Shown here piece after piece: positions 25,534 through 34,183 of a stretch of DNA of 64,000 nucleotides. The stretch spans positions 83,635 to 147,634 of the forward strand of contig CADBBH010000007.1 of NCBI GenBank assembly GCA_902792905.1, given 5' to 3'. The stretch's first letter is position 1, and every line of letters starts with the position of its first letter. Below the pieces are notes generated by a model that saw nothing but the letters and a program-made list of their open reading frames with translations, was not told where the DNA came from and did not search any database. Position numbers and translations under genes: made by a program. This stretch comes from Oscillospiraceae bacterium (lineage in GTDB: Bacteria; Bacillota; Clostridia; Oscillospirales; Acutalibacteraceae).

Positions 25534-26709
25534 ATGAAAGAAGTAATTCTTATAAAAAACGGCGAGCTTGCCCTCAAAGGCCTCAACCGCAGAACCTTCG
25601 AGGATATGCTCATTAAAAATATGAGACTGCGCCTCAAATCCCTCGGTCAGTTCAATTTCGAGGTTCAGCAGTCAACAATAATGGCAGAGCCCCTCGATGA
25701 GAATATCGATCTCGATGAGGCGGCGGAGAGAATCGGCAGGGTATTCGGCATAGCCGCATATTCGAGAGCCATCGCCTGCGAAAAGGATTTTCAGACCATC
25801 CTGAAAAGCGCGGCGGATTATCTCGAGGAGGATCTTGAAGCCGCGTCCACATTCAAGGTCGAGGCAAAGAGGTCGGATAAGAAATTCCCGCTGACATCCC
25901 CCGAAATCTGCAGGGAGGCGGGCGGCTATCTGCTCGGTAAATTCCCGCATCTCGAAGTTGACGTTCACAATCCCGATATTACGGTCAATATAGAAATCAG
26001 AGACACCAGCGCATTCGTCCACGGCAGACAGATAAAGGGCGCGGGCGGTATGCCGACCGGCTCGGCGGGCAAGGCGTGCCTGCTCATTTCGGGCGGTATC
26101 GACAGCCCCGTCGCCGGCTATATGATGGCAAAGCGCGGCCTCTCGCTCACTGCGGTTCACTTTGCCTCCCCGCCCTACACCAGCGAAAAGGCGGAGCAGA
26201 AGGTGCATAAGCTCCTTGAAAAAGTCTCGATGTTCTCGGGCAGAATAGGTCTCTGGGTGGTTCATTTCACCGAGATTCAGGAGAGCATCAAAGATAACTG
26301 CCCCGAGGAAATCTTCACGGTCATTATGCGCAGAATGATGATGCGCGTGGCGCAGATTATCGCGCGGCGCGAGAATGCCGGCGCACTGATTACCGGCGAG
26401 AGCGTAGGTCAGGTCGCGAGCCAGACGATGCCCGCAATCGCCTGCACCGACGCGGTGTGTGAAATCCCCGTATTCAGGCCGCTCATCGGCATGGATAAGG
26501 ATGAAGTGATAGCCATCGCGAGAAATAAGACAGACACATTTGACCTTTCGGTCCTGCCCTATGAGGACTGCTGCACGGTATTCACCCCGAAGCATCCGCG
26601 CACCAGACCAACAATCGAATACGTCGAGAAGGCGGAAGAGGCGTTTGACTGGAGACCGATGGTCGAGACGGCGGCTGAAACAGCCCGCCTCGTAGTGATA
26701 GGATACTGA
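25534..26709 (+). CDS. thiI: tRNA 4-thiouridine synthetase ThiI
   Basis: 391 residues, the short Firmicutes form without a C-terminal rhodanese domain. The N-terminal NFLD/THUMP region (about 1-165) is followed by the PP-loop ATPase with LISGGIDSPVAGYMMAKRG and the ThiI-specific segments LITGESVGQVASQT and HPRTRP. It activates U8 of tRNA for thiolation (and may supply sulfur for thiamine). Paired with the cysteine desulfurase upstream; the cinA start is 2 bases after its stop. Confidence 0.95.
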   Translation: MKEVILIKNGELALKGLNRRTFEDMLIKNMRLRLKSLGQFNFEVQQSTIMAEPLDENIDLDEAAERIGRVFGIAAYSRAIACEKDFQTILKSAADYLEEDLEAASTFKVEAKRSDKKFPLTSPEICREAGGYLLGKFPHLEVDVHNPDITVNIEIRDTSAFVHGRQIKGAGGMPTGSAGKACLLISGGIDSPVAGYMMAKRGLSLTAVHFASPPYTSEKAEQKVHKLLEKVSMFSGRIGLWVVHFTEIQESIKDNCPEEIFTVIMRRMMMRVAQIIARRENAGALITGESVGQVASQTMPAIACTDAVCEIPVFRPLIGMDKDEVIAIARNKTDTFDLSVLPYEDCCTVFTPKHPRTRPTIEYVEKAEEAFDWRPMVETAAETARLVVIGY

Positions 26710-26711
26710 TT

Positions 26712-27953
26712 ATGGCAGTTTGTGAAATCCTTTCGGTAGGCACCGAAATTCTTCTCGGAGACATACTCAATACAAATTCGCAGTATCTCTCCCGCGCGCT
26801 CGCGGATATGGGAATATCCGTGCTGCGCCATACCACGGTCGGCGACAATCACGCCCGCCTTGCCGAAGCGGTAAGGACCGCGCTCGGCAGAAGCGATATC
26901 GTCATTTCAACCGGCGGCCTCGGACCGACTCCCGACGATATCACCGCGGAGGTCTGCTGCCGCGAATTCGGCTTTGAGCTTGAATTCAACGCGCAGGTCG
27001 CCGAAAAAATCAAGAGTTATTTTGCTTCAAAAAATATCGATATGCCCGAAAGCAACCTCAAGCAGGCCTATGTGCCGAAGGGCGGAGATGTTTTTGACAA
27101 TAAAAACGGCACTGCTCCCGGAATGGGAATGAAAAAAGACGGCAAATGCCTGGTGATTCTGCCCGGCCCTCCGCACGAAATGCAGGCGCTTTTCGAAGAG
27201 AGCATAAAACCGTATCTCGCCGAATACTCGGGTTATACGATAGTTTCTCATGAAATAAGGACTATGGGTATCGGCGAAAGTTCGCTCGCGGAGCTCTGCT
27301 CCGACCTGCTCGAATCGGAGAATCCGACCGTCGCCCCCTATTGCAAAATCGGCGAGGCGCTCCTCAGAGTAACCGCAAAGGCGCGGACAAGTGAAGAAGC
27401 GGAAGCGCTCATCGCTCCCGTTATCGATGAAATCAGATCGCGCGCAGGAGAGTATATCTACGGCATCGACTGCAGGAATGTCGAGGACGCGCTTGTTCCC
27501 CTGCTTAAAGAAGCGGGGCTCACGATAGCGACGGCGGAGAGCTGCACCGCAGGACTGATAGCAAAGAGAATCACCGATATTCCCGGAGCGAGTTCGGTTT
27601 TTAAGCACGGAATCATCACCTACGCAAACGAAGTCAAGGAGAAGGCGCTCGGCGTCTCTCACGATACTCTCGAGAAATACGGAGCGGTCAGCGAAGAGAC
27701 CGCGAGGGAAATGGCGGCGGGCGTGCGCCGCGTGACCGGAGCCGATATCGGAATTTCGGTAACCGGTTTTGCGGGCCCCGATGCCGATGAGCAGGGCAAG
27801 GAGCCCGGTCTCATCTATGTCGCGCTTGACAGCGAAAGCGCCGCGGTCTGCGAAAAAATCGAAACCGGCAGAAACGACCGCAATTTCAACCGCACCGTCG
27901 CCGCGTCAAGGGCGATGATACTCGCAGTGAAACAATTATTGAGCAATTCCTGA
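26712..27953 (+). CDS. cinA: CinA-family nicotinamide-nucleotide amidohydrolase/competence protein
   Basis: 413 residues with the full CinA layout: MoCF-type COG1058 domain (about 1-170; VGTEILLGDI, STGGLGPTPDD, LPGPPHEM), a KH-like middle region, and the CinA_C amidase domain (about 255-413; TATAESCTAGLIAKRIT with the catalytic Ser, and ISVTGFAGPD). These enzymes deamidate NMN and hydrolyse ADP-ribose. It lies 2 bases after thiI and 15 bases before the first sortase. A degenerate homologue is present in the N-terminal half of the protein at 30972-33245. Confidence 0.95.
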   Translation: MAVCEILSVGTEILLGDILNTNSQYLSRALADMGISVLRHTTVGDNHARLAEAVRTALGRSDIVISTGGLGPTPDDITAEVCCREFGFELEFNAQVAEKIKSYFASKNIDMPESNLKQAYVPKGGDVFDNKNGTAPGMGMKKDGKCLVILPGPPHEMQALFEESIKPYLAEYSGYTIVSHEIRTMGIGESSLAELCSDLLESENPTVAPYCKIGEALLRVTAKARTSEEAEALIAPVIDEIRSRAGEYIYGIDCRNVEDALVPLLKEAGLTIATAESCTAGLIAKRITDIPGASSVFKHGIITYANEVKEKALGVSHDTLEKYGAVSEETAREMAAGVRRVTGADIGISVTGFAGPDADEQGKEPGLIYVALDSESAAVCEKIETGRNDRNFNRTVAASRAMILAVKQLLSNS

Positions 27954-27968
27954 CCCACGGAGGACAAA

Positions 27969-28946
27969 ATGAAAAACAACAAATTGTGGATAATACTCAG
28001 CTGTGTTTTCGGCCTGGCAGCGGCGGCGTTCATCGCGCTGACCGTAATCAACCTGATGCCGAGAGCGGAAAAAAAGCCGGCGGCGCCGGTTCAGTATGAA
28101 CTGAACGAAAATGTGAATCTTCACAAAATCGGCGACTCGCTCACATCCCTTGTTTCAAACAACTTTAAATCGGCAAAATTCCCCGAGGGAATTCTCGATT
28201 CAATGAAGCAGGCGTATTCGGTGAATCCCAATCTGGTCGGCTGGCTCACGATTCCCGGAACGGAAGTCGATACCGCAGTGCTTCAGTCCGATGACAATGA
28301 CAAATATCTCAAGCGCGATTTCTATGAAAACTGGACGGGCGAGCTCTCGGGCAGACTTTACGGCAATCTTTTCCTCGATTACCGCTGCATCGGAGACGGC
28401 GAGCTCTCAAAGAATATGATTATTCACGGGCATACCACCGGCAAATCGGACGGCATCCCGAAGCAGTCCTTCCGCTCGCTCTATGATTACCGCAAGAAAG
28501 AGCATTTCATCAAAAATCCGATTATCAAGTATTCAACCCTGAAATATCAGTATGTCTATAAGATTTACGCGGTCTTTTATGATTCGGTGAATCCGAAGGA
28601 TGACAACGGATACTTCTTCAATTATATCTATCCCGATATGTCCGATAATAATATGAAGGGCTATATCGAGCAGGTCGATCAGAGAGCCCTCTATAAAACG
28701 GGTGTCGGGCTTGAGCCGACCGATAAAATCATTACGCTCTCAACCTGCATTTATGATCTCGGAAAGAGCGTCGAAACACGCCTCGTAGTGGTCGGCAGAC
28801 TGCTCAGGGACGGCGAGAGCGCGGAGATTGATTCCTCGCTCGTCAAGGATAATCCCGATTACCGCAGGCCCCAGGTCTGGTACACAAGAAACGGCAAAAC
28901 CAACCCCTATAAAGATTCGGCAAGATGGCAACCCAGCCCGGATTGA
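27969..28946 (+). CDS. Class B sortase (short form)
   Basis: 325 residues with an N-terminal membrane anchor (about 7-28) and a class B sortase domain. Catalytic residues visible: His155 in I-I-H-G-H-T-T, Cys260 in ITLSTC and Arg271 in ETRLVVVGRL. The canonical YGHNMH motif is altered to IHGHTT. After the catalytic Arg there is a 45-residue tail ending NPYKDSARWQP, which the next gene shares. AGGACAAA precedes the ATG. Sortase B enzymes attach proteins to peptidoglycan by transpeptidation; the substrate is not obvious next door. Confidence 0.9.
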   Translation: MKNNKLWIILSCVFGLAAAAFIALTVINLMPRAEKKPAAPVQYELNENVNLHKIGDSLTSLVSNNFKSAKFPEGILDSMKQAYSVNPNLVGWLTIPGTEVDTAVLQSDDNDKYLKRDFYENWTGELSGRLYGNLFLDYRCIGDGELSKNMIIHGHTTGKSDGIPKQSFRSLYDYRKKEHFIKNPIIKYSTLKYQYVYKIYAVFYDSVNPKDDNGYFFNYIYPDMSDNNMKGYIEQVDQRALYKTGVGLEPTDKIITLSTCIYDLGKSVETRLVVVGRLLRDGESAEIDSSLVKDNPDYRRPQVWYTRNGKTNPYKDSARWQPSPD

Positions 28947-28993: not shown

Positions 28994-30901
28994 ATGGCAG
29001 ACGATAACAACAAGACCAATATCCCCGAGGGCATGAGCAATCTCAGCGATGAGGAAGCGATTACCGAGATAGATATCGATTCGTTCCTCACTTCGCAGAA
29101 CGAGAGCGAAAAGCCCGCCTACGGCGATGAAATAAAACAGACGGAGCAATCCATAGAGGAAGAGATACAGAGTCTTATGGACAGTATTATGAGCTCCGCT
29201 CCCGCGACACCGGTTCCCGAAACTCCGTCGGAGGAGAAGGCGGAACAGGGCGAAAAGCCGCTCGGAGACCTGTGGATGAATCCCGAGGAATATATTGATA
29301 TTCCCGCAGCTCCGGCCCCCAAAGAGCCCGAGGTCCCGAACGCACCCGTACCCGAGGTCGCGAAGGATGACATCCTCACAATGATTGAGGAGCTCAAGGC
29401 GGATACCGATACCGAGAAGGGCTTTGAAAGCCTTATCACGGATATAGAATCAAATGAGAATATGGCTCCGATGGATGTCGGAGACGAAAAACCCGCGGCT
29501 CCGGCAGAGCAGCCCGCACCCGTTCCCGAAAAACCCGCGGAACCCGAAAAGCCCGAAAAGTCCGCCAAAAAGCCCGGCGAAATCGATATTCACGCCGAAG
29601 GGTTTGAGCAGGAGCTTGCCGCCCTGCTCGGCGATGAGCCCGCGAAGGAAGAGGAGCCCGCCGTAGAGACTCAGAACGAAGAAGCTTACGACGATTCTTT
29701 TGAGGTTGAGGAGATTCCCGAGGACAGGGCCGATGAGGGCGCGATTTCGTTCGATAAGAGCAAATCCCCCGCCGTCCCCGTCCAGACACCCGAGGGCGCG
29801 GTGGAAATCGCCGCCGCGAGCGTTTCAAACGAGCCTCAGGTTCAAGTATTCGACCTGCTTCAGAGCAGCGAAAAGACCGTCGGCAACGTTCCTCTGGAAA
29901 TAATCGAGGACGACGGCAAGATTTCAAAGCAGGAGCGCAAGCAGGCAAAGATTGATAAGAAAATCGCCGAGGGCAAGAATCCGAAGGTTGCCGAGGCAAT
30001 CCGCAAGACTGTACTCGCGATTTCGATTCTCGTTATTATCGTCAGCTCCGCGTATCTCGCAAAGACATATATCTACGAACCCATGATGTTCAAGAAACAT
30101 CAGAGCGAAATCCAGAATATAGTCAGCGAGCCGGCAAACAATGTGAGTGAAACGATTGCCCAGAATGACAGCAAATATCCGGTAGGCATGCTCGCGAAAT
30201 ACAAGAAGCTCTACGATATCAATAAAGATCTGCGCGGCTGGGTTTCGATTCCCGGACTTGAAATCAATCTTCCGATAGCTCAGGCTAAGGATAACGATTT
30301 CTATCTTCACAGGAATATATATCAGAAGCGCACCATGTACGGCGTGCCGTTCTTCGATTACAGAATCTCGGATTTCAAGAACCTGCCGAAGAACACCGTG
30401 GTTTACGGCCACAATATGCACTACGACGATCTGATTTTCGGCAAGCTTGAAAACTACAGAGATACCAGAGGTTTCAAGGAAGCGCCGACCATCGAGTGCA
30501 ACACGATTTACGGCGACTATACCTGGCTCGTCTATGCCGCGTTCATCACCAATTCGGCGGCGTCTCAGGATAACGGCTATATGTTCACATATAACTGGAT
30601 AGACCTCTCCGACAGCAAGTTTATGGAATTCATAAACGAGGTTGACAAGAGAAAGATGTTCACCTCGCCCGTTGATATTCAGCCGACCGACAAGATTCTC
30701 ACGCTCTCAACCTGCTGCTATGACTTTGACGGCGCCCGCCTTGTGGTCATAGCCAGGCTCAAGAGAGACGGCGAAAGCGTTTCAATAGATACTTCCCAGG
30801 CATTCAACAACGATAATCCCAAGTATCCGCAGGCCTGGTATAACGCAAATAAAAAGAACAACCCCTATGCCGATGACGCAAGATGGTATCCAAATAAGTA
30901 A
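28994..30901 (+). CDS. Class B sortase with a long acidic cytosolic N-terminus
   Basis: 635 residues. The first 335 are predicted cytosolic, rich in Glu, Pro, Ala and Asp and probably disordered, with short hydrophobic patches. A basic patch (KQERKQAKIDKKIAEGKN) precedes one transmembrane helix (about 338-357). The C-terminal sortase B domain has His473 (VYGHNMH), Cys574 (LTLSTC) and Arg582 (ARLVVIARL). The tail NPYADDARWYP matches that of the neighbouring sortase. Typical SrtB proteins are about 250 residues, so the cytosolic extension is the odd feature. AAAGGAGATAA precedes the ATG. Confidence 0.9.
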   Translation: MADDNNKTNIPEGMSNLSDEEAITEIDIDSFLTSQNESEKPAYGDEIKQTEQSIEEEIQSLMDSIMSSAPATPVPETPSEEKAEQGEKPLGDLWMNPEEYIDIPAAPAPKEPEVPNAPVPEVAKDDILTMIEELKADTDTEKGFESLITDIESNENMAPMDVGDEKPAAPAEQPAPVPEKPAEPEKPEKSAKKPGEIDIHAEGFEQELAALLGDEPAKEEEPAVETQNEEAYDDSFEVEEIPEDRADEGAISFDKSKSPAVPVQTPEGAVEIAAASVSNEPQVQVFDLLQSSEKTVGNVPLEIIEDDGKISKQERKQAKIDKKIAEGKNPKVAEAIRKTVLAISILVIIVSSAYLAKTYIYEPMMFKKHQSEIQNIVSEPANNVSETIAQNDSKYPVGMLAKYKKLYDINKDLRGWVSIPGLEINLPIAQAKDNDFYLHRNIYQKRTMYGVPFFDYRISDFKNLPKNTVVYGHNMHYDDLIFGKLENYRDTRGFKEAPTIECNTIYGDYTWLVYAAFITNSAASQDNGYMFTYNWIDLSDSKFMEFINEVDKRKMFTSPVDIQPTDKILTLSTCCYDFDGARLVVIARLKRDGESVSIDTSQAFNNDNPKYPQAWYNANKKNNPYADDARWYPNK

Positions 30902-30971: not shown

Positions 30972-33245
30972 ATGGCTTCAGAAGTCAGCCTTTACCTGCC
31001 CGGCGATGATTCTCTGCTTGAGGCCGCGAGCGCGGCTTACGCGAAGATTTCCGTCACGGCGGGGCTTTCGGGAGCATTCAAATATGCGAACGAAAAAGAG
31101 GCAGTAAAGCTTGCCGCGGCGGCAGCCGCGAAGGGCGAGACCGCTGTTATCATTGCCGATGACGGCAGATTCAACACAGTCAAGCTTCTGCTGATGAAGG
31201 TGCTTTTGACCAAAGTCGGCCACTCTGATGTAATATCGGAAAAATTAAGCAGTGTTTCTTTTCAGGATTCAAGGGAATTCCGCATTCATACGGCTGTCCC
31301 GCACGGCGGAAAGATTTTCCCGTCGCCCGACGGACTGTATTCGGCTCTGAGCGTAAAGCTGCGCAAGGGCTTTGTTATCCTCGCTTCGCTTGACGCGAAA
31401 AGACTTGATTCCGCCCTCTCGCAGGGCATTCTCAAGGACCTGCCCGGCAATCAGAAAAGCGGAAAGGATATGCTCCGCTCCTGCCTCGATGAGGCGGAAA
31501 ACGCGGGCAAGAGCATAGCCCTCGCGGATTACGGTCTCGCGCAGGCCGTGATGAATGTCGCCGAAAGCGTCGGCGCGAAAGAGGGACTTATATTAAAGAC
31601 GGAGGCATCCTGCGATGCCCCTGCGGACGATCCTCAGTATATCGCGCTGCTCGCGAAGAACGCGATTGAGAACGCCGGCACGGATTCAATCGGCGCCGCT
31701 ATTTCGGAGCCCGCCGCGGACGGCTCGATAAGCATCTGCGTTGCGGACAGCGAATCGGCAAAGGTTGAGGTTATCCACGCTCTCGAGGGCGAGGATAAAT
31801 CAAAGACCGCCAAGGCGGCGACCGTCAAGCTCTTTGAAATGATTGCGGACTGCACCAGAAACGGCATCGGCGCGCCCGAATACAAGCCGAAGAAAGGCAG
31901 CGTAAAGCCGCTTATCATCGTCATAATCTGCCTTGTTGTCGCGGCGATTGCCTGCCTTGCGATAGGGCTTTCAATCTATAAGAACAGCATAAGCAAGGCG
32001 GATGTCGCGGGCGAATCGACCACTGTCGAAAACGTGACCTCAATCAAGGTGTCATCCACATTCGGTCAGACCACACGAGGGGCGGACGAGGAGCTCTACG
32101 ACGAGGTTGTTCCCGATTTCGGAGAGAAGGAATCATCCCTGCTCGAGGTCATTGACACGACCTATAACGCCGGCGGAGTGAAGACTCAGGCGGCAAACGG
32201 GCAGTTCACCACCAACGGCGCGGGAGCCGTTGAGGTTATCACAAGCGCGAGGGACGCTTCAAGCGACGCGGCCAGAATCGCCACCACGGTCAGAGCGGTT
32301 ATATCGGCTCTGATGCCGACGGATGAGGGCGGCGAGGAAGGCGGCGACACGTCAACCGGCTATTCCCATTCGCGCCGCACCACAACCACGACAACAGCAA
32401 GGACGACGGAGAAGACAACGGCGTCGGCGCCGCAGGGCAAATTCGTATTCACGGTTTACGGCTACGGTCACGGAGTCGGAATGAGCCAGCGCGGAGCTAT
32501 AATCTATGCCGAAAAAGGCTGGACCTGCAATCAGATTCTGACACATTACTATCAGGGCACGACCCTTATGGTAGATAAGAATACGCCCGCGGAGGTCACG
32601 AGGCGCGGAGTGAGAATGACTCTCGTCGCCTTCCTGTGCAGGACCGTCGAGCCAGAAATAGGCCCGAATTCGCCCATGGAAGCTCTCAAGGCGCAGGCGA
32701 TTGCCGCCTACACCTTCGGCATGAGCAACGGCTGGGACAGAAACCAGTCATTCGACCCGTATTTCAATTATAAGGGCACGAAGGTTGAGCAGGCGGTATT
32801 CTCGATACTTCATATAACCTCCGAGGATGAGCAGCCACACGCGATTTTCGTCAGCTACAACGGCGGCTACGCGAATACGGTTTACTGCGCATCGATGGCG
32901 GGCAAGACCACCTCGTGCAAATCCGTATGGAGCCTCGACATCCCCTATCTGCGCGGCGGCTCGGTCAGCCCCGAAAGCGTGGATGTGAGCACGGTCGAAT
33001 TCACGGTCGATCAGATGAGAAGCATCGTCAGGAATTTCTCGGGCAATACCGAAATTCTCAATCAGGATCCGTCCACCTGGATAAGAATCATTTCGCACGA
33101 CGGCTCCTACAGCAACGCGATAGGCTATGTTGACCAGATGAGCATAGGCGGCAAGACCTGCACCGGAAGCTATTTCCGCACCAATCTCATCAACTACGCC
33201 CTTCGCTCCCACTGCTTCACAATCAAGTATGTGAAATACAATTAA
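30972..33245 (+). CDS. Membrane protein: degenerate CinA-like domain + rearranged SpoIID/LytB domain
   Basis: 757 residues from ATG 30972 (AAAGGGGTGA upstream). Residues 1-300 are cytosolic and align by eye with CinA: 97-155 with its MoCF end (AVPHGGKIF against YVPKGGDVF, then FVIL), and 178-295 with the CinA_C domain (ICVADSES against IYVALDSES). The motif residues are lost: GGLGPTPDD has no counterpart, and the catalytic AESCTAG segment reads [10 protein letters not shown] transmembrane helix (about 312-335) and a Thr-rich linker (340-490) follow. The extracellular part is SpoIID/LytB-like: [13 protein letters not shown] at 497, [11 protein letters not shown], then E562 before [15 protein letters not shown]. 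Usually the GHGVGMSQ segment comes last, so the domain is circularly permuted. A lytic transglycosylase activity on peptidoglycan is inferred. Confidence 0.75.
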
Positions 33246-33255
33246 ACATAACAAA

Positions 33256-33286
33256 AAAACACGGCTTAATCAGCCGTGTTTTTCTT
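33256..33286. terminator. Bidirectional rho-independent terminator
   Basis: Stem AAAACACGGCT/AGCCGTGTTTT with A-run before and T-run after, between the convergent SpoIID-like and EamA genes. Confidence 0.9.
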
Positions 33287-34183
33287 TTGAATATCCGGTT
33301 TATCCTGCGCCTTCGAGGGCAGATTGAGAAGTATTATCGCCGTGAAAACAAGGGCGATGCCCGCGATTTTCAAAGCGGTACGGGGTTCGCCGTAAACCGT
33401 CATTCCGAGCAGGGCGCCGACAAGCGGCTCAATCGCCGCGATGATTCCCGCCTTGCCGGTATCAAGCCCCCTGAGCCCTTCGGTATAGAACAGATAGGGA
33501 AGCACAGTGCAGAGAATTCCTATGCCGAGGCACCATAGAATCAGTGACGGTTCGGCAGCAATGATTTTTGCCGTCTGAAGCGGTTTGCCGATAAACAGCG
33601 AGCCGATGAGCCCGAATATGAAGGTGTATTCCGTGACGGTCATCGGACTGTATCTTCTGAGCGCGAATCTGCCGAATATCGAATAGAGGCCGTAGCAGAG
33701 ACCCGAGCCGAGACCTGTCATAAGAATAAGCGGAGTCAGTCTGTATCCGCCGCCCGCGAGGCCGGTGACAAGCACACAGCCGGCAACAGTCAGAATCAGC
33801 GCGGCGATCTTCCTCGCGGTGATTTTTTCTCTGAAAAATACCGCCGACATAAGCATTATGAATACGGGCGATGTATAGAGCAGAACAACGGCGATGCTCG
33901 CCTGCGAATGAATCATCGTATAGAAATAGAAGCAGTTGAAGAGCACTACGCTGATTATACCCGTGCCGATAAACAGCGGAATATCGCGCGGCCTTATTTT
34001 AAGGGCGTGTCTGTCTTTCGCGAGGGCAAAAACGGTGAAGAGCGGCGCCGCGACCGCCATTCTGATAAGCGATATATTCATGGCGTCGAGACCGCTTGCC
34101 GAAAGGCGCTTGATGAATACGGTGATTATACCCCAGAGAATTCCCGCGAGCAGCACGCATATTACGGATTTTTTATTTTTCAT
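33266..34183 (-). CDS. EamA/DMT-superfamily transporter
   Basis: 305 residues with ten predicted helices in two EamA repeats (starts at about 7 and 152; GILWGIITVFIKRLS and GLGSGLCYGLYSIFGR). The C-terminal half has EGLRGLDTGKAGIIAAIEPLVGALLG, a hallmark of the drug/metabolite exporter family. The substrate is unknown. Its 3' end overlaps the shared terminator. Confidence 0.9.
   Translation of the reverse strand: MKNKKSVICVLLAGILWGIITVFIKRLSASGLDAMNISLIRMAVAAPLFTVFALAKDRHALKIRPRDIPLFIGTGIISVVLFNCFYFYTMIHSQASIAVVLLYTSPVFIMLMSAVFFREKITARKIAALILTVAGCVLVTGLAGGGYRLTPLILMTGLGSGLCYGLYSIFGRFALRRYSPMTVTEYTFIFGLIGSLFIGKPLQTAKIIAAEPSLILWCLGIGILCTVLPYLFYTEGLRGLDTGKAGIIAAIEPLVGALLGMTVYGEPRTALKIAGIALVFTAIILLNLPSKAQDKPDIQKKNTAD

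Follow-up and report, generated by a model that had tools for sequence, protein, structure and literature searches.

We analysed a window of 64,000 nucleotides (the whole stretch, positions 83,635 to 147,634 of contig CADBBH010000007.1) from an Oscillospiraceae bacterium of the GTDB family Acutalibacteraceae. The window carried five genes in the order thiI-cinA-sortase-sortase-pseudo-CinA, with intergenic gaps of 2, 15, 47 and 70 bases, the last gene encoding a membrane protein of 757 residues in an open reading frame (ORF) that lay where the original prediction had put it, with a ribosome-binding-like AAAGGGG ahead of its ATG (Table 1). CinA occurs widely in bacteria and is known for recycling nicotinamide adenine dinucleotide (NAD), as a deamidase of nicotinamide mononucleotide (NMN) or a pyrophosphatase of adenosine diphosphate ribose (ADP-ribose); sortases fix proteins to the cell wall, and SpoIID is best known from sporulation. 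Residues ~17 to 293 of the 757-residue protein are almost certainly a degenerate CinA that has lost its KH domain, and with the same confidence we assign the half beyond its transmembrane (TM) helix to a circularly permuted SpoIID/LytB domain. The circular permutation, the loss of KH and the identity of the two intervening genes as sortases had been missed by the original prediction.

Homology to CinA was established between profiles. An alignment of 39 pseudo-CinA relatives (A1) compared by hhalign with 21 full CinA sequences gave a probability of 98.1% (E 1.2e-13; E-values from hhalign are those of single comparisons), with residues 17-293 colinear with CinA 21-407 over both halves. This bore out the likeness of residues 1-300 to CinA that had been drawn by eye, and the motif pairs quoted for it occupied the same aligned columns. 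The profile-profile check proposed at the time found that each half matched its own CinA domain only: residues 1-155 matched MoCF (95.5, E 1.3e-8; CinA_C 0.3) and residues 160-305 matched CinA_C (96.6, E 6.5e-10; MoCF 0.2). Nothing in pseudo-CinA matched the KH domain (0.2-0.9), which was spanned by an alignment gap. Reversed CinA scored 1.0, column shuffles no more than 0.6 in 60/60 cases, and control alignments of the neighbouring families (thiI, the two sortases and SpoIID) no more than 1.4; among 64 stop-to-stop window ORFs of at least 200 residues, CinA was the sole non-self match (91.5; runner-up 2.5). Ordinary hidden Markov models (HMMs) built from the pseudo-CinA halves detected true CinA in the same and other loci (e.g. 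E 2e-9), and the NCBIfam CinA model PRK00549 weakly matched a stand-alone relative, L142 (1.1e-4). Searched at E <=1e-6 over 291 genomes spread across the class, the A1 profile hit 15, comprising the window's own and 14 others, and purpose-built CinA HMMs identified all 14 other matches as true CinA (12 full-length, 2 CinA_C only). Within the family, the pseudo-CinA domain was kept in 27 genera (matches at E <=1e-20 in 200 genomes), also as a stand-alone gene.

According to passages of a study of Thermus CinA (PMC4246079), Asp-76 (Mg), Glu-156 (ribose), Tyr-296 (phosphate), Lys-301 (general base) and Thr-340 serve ligand binding or catalysis, the KH domain helps to close the ADP-ribose site, and the enzyme (TtCinA) is a dimer with KH among its natural contacts. 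Aligned to 4ct8, which from its matching numbering we infer to be Thermus CinA, these residues corresponded to D76, E156, Y304, K309 and T351 of the window CinA. The original prediction had held that the functional residues were gone from pseudo-CinA, and the profile alignment agreed: GGLGPTxDD, most of PGPPxEM, all of AESCTGG but the initial Ala, and the Tyr/Lys segment were replaced or deleted. Across the 39 sequences, the Asp-76 column held mostly L, N, V or S, the Glu-156 column held R in 24 and E in 2, the equivalent of Tyr-296 was an alignment gap, and the Lys-301 column held R in 9 and C, A or K in 4 each, within a gapped stretch that makes this column uncertain. The Thr-340 position alone kept its hydroxyl (Ser in 38, Thr in 1). 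Near-invariant residues were Lys-71 (39/39, and also Lys in 19 of 21 CinA), Gly-121, Ser-124 and Ser-245 (38/39 each) and Glu-274 (37/39), and a DGLYSA loop replaced GTAPG. These substitutions mark the pseudo-CinA half, as judged from its sequence, as a pseudoenzyme and a non-catalytic domain.

No hydrophobic stretch occurred in the first 63 residues of any of the 39 relatives, and the flank before the TM helix was more positive than the flank after it in 34 (less so in 5), supporting the predicted placement of the pseudo-CinA half in the cytosol and of the SpoIID domain outside. This outside half, earlier likened to a lytic transglycosylase, scored 124.3 bits against the SpoIID/LytB model TIGR02669 (cut-off 83.3), split over two stretches, and 94.7 bits against the sporulation SpoIID equivalog TIGR02870, under its cut-off of 234.75. 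The block that ends canonical SpoIID here comes first, and the canonical N-terminal block comes last. Glu-562 of the latter aligned with Glu-101 of 5txu, which we take to be C. difficile SpoIID, as its length of 354 fits. In passages of a study of that protein, E101 is described as essential (PMC6221140). GHGVGxSQ, the catalytic Glu and EAxKAQ were invariant in 24/24 aligned relatives. When permuted sequences were rotated into canonical order and scored with an HMM built from 15 canonical SpoIID sequences, the best single-stretch score rose in 52/52 rows (51 distinct places), the median going from 115 to 192 bits. The alignments and the rotation together indicate a circularly permuted SpoIID/LytB domain with its catalytic Glu and GHGVGMSQ intact.

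In a tree, permuted and canonical SpoIID rows were parted by one branch (support 93/89; recovered in 92% of bootstrap trees), which agrees with a single origin of the permuted form but does not prove it. A permuted model found full-length matches at 34 places in 32 of 200 family genomes, belonging to 20 genera; one partial match, in G263, started likewise (2-129), and the remaining matches began no earlier than profile position 25, the majority close to 60, as canonical order predicts. Among 391 class genomes, in which up to six candidates per genome were scored and others may be missed, one full permuted match lay outside the family, in G651. This protein (L109 / L135; 367 residues), whose genome belongs to another family, fell within the family f1 sequences in the tree, possibly reflecting transfer or a misbinned contig. 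A second protein with permuted SpoIID, there preceded by an M23 peptidase domain, was encoded in the window's own genome (L104:8089-9510, G000:C3; Pfam E 1e-18); a relative (L077) had an extra C39-like peptidase at its end. Elsewhere, pseudo-CinA was joined to a SpoIID in canonical order (L138:4523-6811, G200), a possible intermediate before permutation.

A gene-model error, whether frameshift or fusion artefact, was ruled out: 29 ORFs from 29 genomes aligned along their length, and a fusion artefact was also countered by 38 fused ORFs in the loci described below, a set that overlaps the 29. A single-protein search for related loci had returned just three near relatives, each an uncultured member of the Clostridia; two came from the rumen of water buffalo and the omasum of sheep.

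Table 1. Features of the thiI-to-pseudo-CinA gene run, in window coordinates.
Feature	Position	Strand	Basis
thiI, at the head of the conserved run	25534..26709	+	Pfam ThiI 1.2e-67; position conserved
cinA, full MoCF-KH-CinA_C	26712..27953	+	Pfam
Class-B-type sortase with TLSTC	27969..28946	+	Pfam Sortase 1.6e-8; TIGR03064 102.8 bits, below cut-off 153.75
Second class-B-type sortase with TLSTC	28994..30901	+	Pfam Sortase 9.8e-10; TIGR03064 137.8 bits, below cut-off
Pseudo-CinA / TM / circularly permuted SpoIID protein, 757 residues	30972..33245	+	ORF: ATG at 30972, stop ends at 33245
Degenerate MoCF/COG1058 half, residues 17-157	31020..31442	+	hhalign to CinA MoCF, probability 94.8-95.5, E 5e-8 to 1e-8
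Degenerate CinA_C (NMN deamidase) half, residues 171-293	31482..31850	+	hhalign to CinA_C, probability 95.8-96.6, E 8e-9 to 6.5e-10
Single transmembrane helix, residues 314-333	31911..31970	+	Mean hydropathy 3.33 over 20 residues; flank charge +3 before, 0 after
Extracytoplasmic linker, Thr-rich near its end, residues ~340-485	31989..32426	+	Translation; no family in Pfam/NCBIfam
GHGVGMSQ block, C-terminal in ordinary SpoIID but leading here, residues 488-532	32433..32567	+	488-531 aligned to 5i1t 282-325 and 5txu 306-349; end of TIGR02669 profile
Block that is N-terminal in ordinary SpoIID but in last place here, residues 541-752	32592..33227	+	Aligned to 5i1t 56-279 and 5txu 80-303, weakly alone (16 bits); Pfam SpoIID 548-591, E 1e-6
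Glu-562, aligned with catalytic Glu-101 of SpoIID from C. difficile	32655..32657	+	phmmer alignment to 5txu (80 to 541, ungapped to here)
Terminator-like hairpin, on both strands	33255..33283	.	Between the pseudo-CinA gene and convergent ORF 33266-34183 (-)

The hairpin was one of 17 terminator-like sites in the region, where 10.4 were expected by chance, and a promoter scan was uninformative (6 sites against 5.2 expected). The translation of the second sortase gene (28994-30901) has an acidic low-complexity tail of ~340 residues, then a hydrophobic stretch, both before the sortase part; the tail is a possible docking arm.

We scanned 82 loci, picked by pseudo-CinA or SpoIID matches and not by sortases, and recovered 63 pseudo-CinA ORFs. 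SpoIID was present within the ORF in permuted form in 38 and in canonical form in one (L138), and was absent from the ORF in 24. A separate gene for the permuted kind of SpoIID adjoined pseudo-CinA in seven loci (L126, L128, L129, L132, L134, L151 and L152), and 17 of the 63 ORFs had no SpoIID within and none recognised beside them, including one (L123) that precedes a pseudo-CinA with SpoIID. In that locus (L123:4826-8736, G225) two pseudo-CinA genes stood in tandem, the second alone being joined to permuted SpoIID. Directly upstream on the same strand, 61 of the 63 ORFs had a sortase (in L123, another pseudo-CinA) at a distance, measured between stop-to-stop ORFs, of no more than 100 bases in 59 and no more than 132 bases in all 61; the two others (L101 and L149) begin near a contig start. 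With 24 of 63 ORFs free of SpoIID and 61 of 63 following a sortase or, in L123, a pseudo-CinA, the constant partner of pseudo-CinA is the sortase, not SpoIID. The original prediction had also proposed a search for the same architecture in other Clostridia, asking whether it always lies near cinA, and within the fetched stretches cinA lay upstream of 56 of the 63 ORFs and thiI upstream of 52. Proximity to cinA thus held in most loci; six of the seven without a visible cinA reach a contig end, and L151 is unexplained.

The order thiI-cinA-sortase(s)-pseudo-CinA was conserved and, with the terminal pseudo-CinA, was seen in just one family of Clostridia. In L082 and L083, which belong to another family of the order, thiI, CinA_C, a sortase and a canonical SpoIID occurred with no pseudo-CinA. 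For comparison, among order-wide CinA loci (the best-scoring 30 of 56, ~3.4 kb each), a sortase was found in four, the window's own included, and thiI in 23. Intact full CinA was fused to a class-B-type sortase in six loci from other genera of the family (L078:11513-14347, L079:2967-5927, L080:2914-5877, L081:2089-4683, L154:6890-9985 and L157:3484-6102), and CinA_C alone was so fused in another family of the order (L084:5172-7922). A hydrophobic stretch separated the CinA and sortase parts, scoring just under the 2.0 cut-off in L078 (1.88) and L084 (1.95). The last gene of L078-L081 and L085 encoded a degenerate MoCF, a TM helix, a sortase-like domain and a canonical SpoIID (e.g. L078:8846-11413); in L086 the sortase-like domain was not recognised, and in L154 just 75 residues lay ahead of the TM helix. 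Six such N-termini (L078-L081, L085 and L086) matched CinA MoCF at 97.5% and the window family at 96.2% by hhalign. The TLxTC motif is a sortase signature. It was absent from 6/6 SpoIID-joined sortase-like domains (L078-L081, L085 and L154), which are thus apparent pseudo-sortases; 92 of 112 other sortase ORFs carried it. In the window's own genome, proteins ending in LPSTG (L136) and LPEAG (L137), wall anchors of the LPxTG type, are candidate sortase substrates.

Among 28 genomes of the genus, 14 encoded both SpoIIP and canonical SpoIID, 11 encoded neither and 3 encoded one. SpoIIP was not found in the window's own genome (G000, ~84% complete), and both markers were missing from 10 other genomes of the genus, one of them rated 100% complete. 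The fused protein was kept in 10 of the 11 genomes that lacked both markers, which led us to reject a sporulation role, and its most likely task is therefore vegetative wall work, a conclusion that we hold to be probably correct. Against L006, the ratio of nonsynonymous to synonymous substitution rates (dN/dS) was ~0.21 and 0.13 in the pseudo-CinA halves, 0.10 in the linker and 0.06 in SpoIID; against L007, it was 0.27 and 0.23 for the halves and 0.09 for SpoIID, with the linker saturated. By these values purifying selection acts on both pseudo-CinA halves, less strictly than on SpoIID, but given the linker they are weak evidence for the domain itself.

The best overall explanation, to which we give about an even chance, is that a non-catalytic domain of CinA fold docks sortases to a site of local wall cutting. 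By its sequence, the cytosolic half is a CinA that was retained as a non-catalytic domain after the loss of KH and of the residues for catalysis and ligand binding. Since a CinA fold inside and a sortase outside are common to the architectures and SpoIID is optional, we propose that the pseudo-CinA half may serve the sortases of the same gene run, and perhaps CinA too, as a cytosolic platform for docking or regulation. The permuted SpoIID would cut glycan strands where the sortases attach wall proteins, in growing cells. That docking to a sortase/CinA assembly is the particular job of the pseudo-CinA half we put forward more tentatively. With comparable reserve, the locus may represent a membrane machine not described before: the CinA fold, no longer tied to NAD metabolism, would have become the inside platform of class-B-type sortases with a permuted lytic transglycosylase attached, and several degrees of this rebuilding would survive in relatives as CinA-sortase fusions, dead sortases, stand-alone pseudo-CinA, and pseudo-CinA on canonical or on permuted SpoIID. 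We regard the architecture as solid; the mechanism is what we infer from it.

Several observations weigh against this explanation. Adjacency of pseudo-CinA and sortase genes is no proof of contact. In 16 loci the true cinA has the CinA_C half only, beside a pseudo-CinA that retains MoCF (15 with both halves, 1 with MoCF only). SpoIIP and SpoIID were the only markers by which sporulation was judged, in draft genomes, 3 of 28 having just one of them. The linker had a dN/dS as low as that of the pseudo-CinA halves in one close pair, so this measure says little about the domain. Divergence from CinA must also be great, because Pfam CinA reached only 3 of the 39 A1 members (best E 0.0056) and the A1 profile found no CinA chain among PDB sequences at E <=10, its four matches there, none of them CinA, being led by a designed protein (E 0.03). 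Like a pairwise BLASTP E of 0.55 between pseudo-CinA and CinA of the window, at which homology is not detectable, and like the failure of Pfam and NCBIfam to name the N-terminal half from the single sequence, each of these searches by itself would have rejected the CinA idea in favour of a chance likeness of Rossmann-like folds. The profile-profile and genome searches overturned that verdict: the domain-specific hhalign matches, their controls and the class-level matches, 14/14 of them CinA, already contradict a chance likeness, whose probability we consider close to nil.

The 16 loci with a truncated CinA bear equally on a reading in which pseudo-CinA pairs with active CinA as a mixed dimer and holds or tunes it at the membrane, coupling pyridine-nucleotide recycling to wall work. 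The dimeric state of TtCinA, the cinA gene upstream in 56 of 63 cases and the CinA-sortase fusions of relatives all speak for such pairing, but a MoCF-less CinA beside a MoCF-keeping pseudo-CinA means that a simple mixed dimer cannot be the general rule, and pseudo-CinA lacks KH, which contributes to the dimer contacts in nature; we consider the reading unlikely. The original prediction had instead proposed a dead enzyme that has kept its binding of NMN, ADP-ribose or a similar nucleotide and signals through the TM helix to the wall enzyme. CinA ancestry favours it, as do the kept glycine of the GTAPG loop (38/39), the invariant hydroxyl at the Thr-340 position and the proline of PGPP (32/39, though Ser-139 in the window). 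With the equivalents of Asp-76, Glu-156, Lys-301 and Tyr-296 replaced or deleted and KH absent, however, sensing of these ligands is not a likely function, and the 17 pseudo-CinA ORFs with no recognised SpoIID would have no such output; we think a sensor quite improbable. The original prediction had further proposed a link between nicotinamide-nucleotide status and wall remodelling; the link that gene order and fusions suggest is one to sortases, which had gone unmentioned. A new activity or ligand, with the family-specific Lys-71, DGLYSA loop, Ser-245 and Glu-274 forming a new site, would account for the near-invariance of these columns, yet they form no known motif, Lys-71 is shared with most CinA and some positions may be structural, which leaves this idea little probability. 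The chance is also slim that the pseudo-CinA half is a passive remnant of an old CinA-sortase-like fusion that merely holds the protein in the membrane: the CinA-sortase fusions and the MoCF-TM-dead sortase-SpoIID proteins do suggest duplication and decay, but the domain is constrained and kept across its many genera, also where it stands alone.

If the docking explanation is true, a conserved, membrane-bound dead CinA that travels with sortases represents a second career for the CinA fold, and whether sortases bind that fold becomes a directly testable question. The permuted SpoIID, spread through 20 genera of one family, provides a natural experiment, both on the fold and on the use of a sporulation enzyme in cells without its sporulation partner. 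Among the open-licence papers searched, we found none joining SpoIID with circular permutation, CinA with SpoIID, CinA-like proteins with pseudoenzymes, or cinA with sortase and thiI. In the two best-ranked papers on circular permutation and lytic transglycosylases, the passages concerned other proteins and left SpoIID unmentioned, and the titles and abstract openings returned for CinA-sortase fusion and for SpoIID-sortase concerned other matters. The arrangement points to an undescribed wall-building machine.

A precedent in working is offered by MoCF scaffolds such as gephyrin and Glp, a corynebacterial molybdotransferase-like protein that is reported to coordinate wall growth and division with a membrane receptor (PMC10522489). 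Glp belongs to the MoeA/gephyrin lineage; its model NF045515 was weak on the true CinA of L078 (E 3e-7, under cut-off) and was not among the matches at E <=0.01 of the two SpoIID-bearing and one stand-alone pseudo-CinA scanned. With CinA, the window protein shares colinear homology over both outer domains, and the run includes a true cinA three genes upstream; it differs in having lost KH, in its replaced catalytic and ligand residues, and in being membrane-anchored and fused to a wall enzyme. With SpoIID/LytB (TIGR02669, Pfam SpoIID; 5i1t, 5txu, 4rwr) it shares both blocks, the catalytic Glu and GHGVGMSQ, whereas its blocks are permuted and it persists in genomes that lack SpoIIP and canonical SpoIID. 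The two upstream genes resemble class B sortases (TIGR03064) in carrying TLSTC but score under the equivalog cut-off, and they are separate from the window protein, whereas sister genera fuse sortases to CinA or SpoIID.

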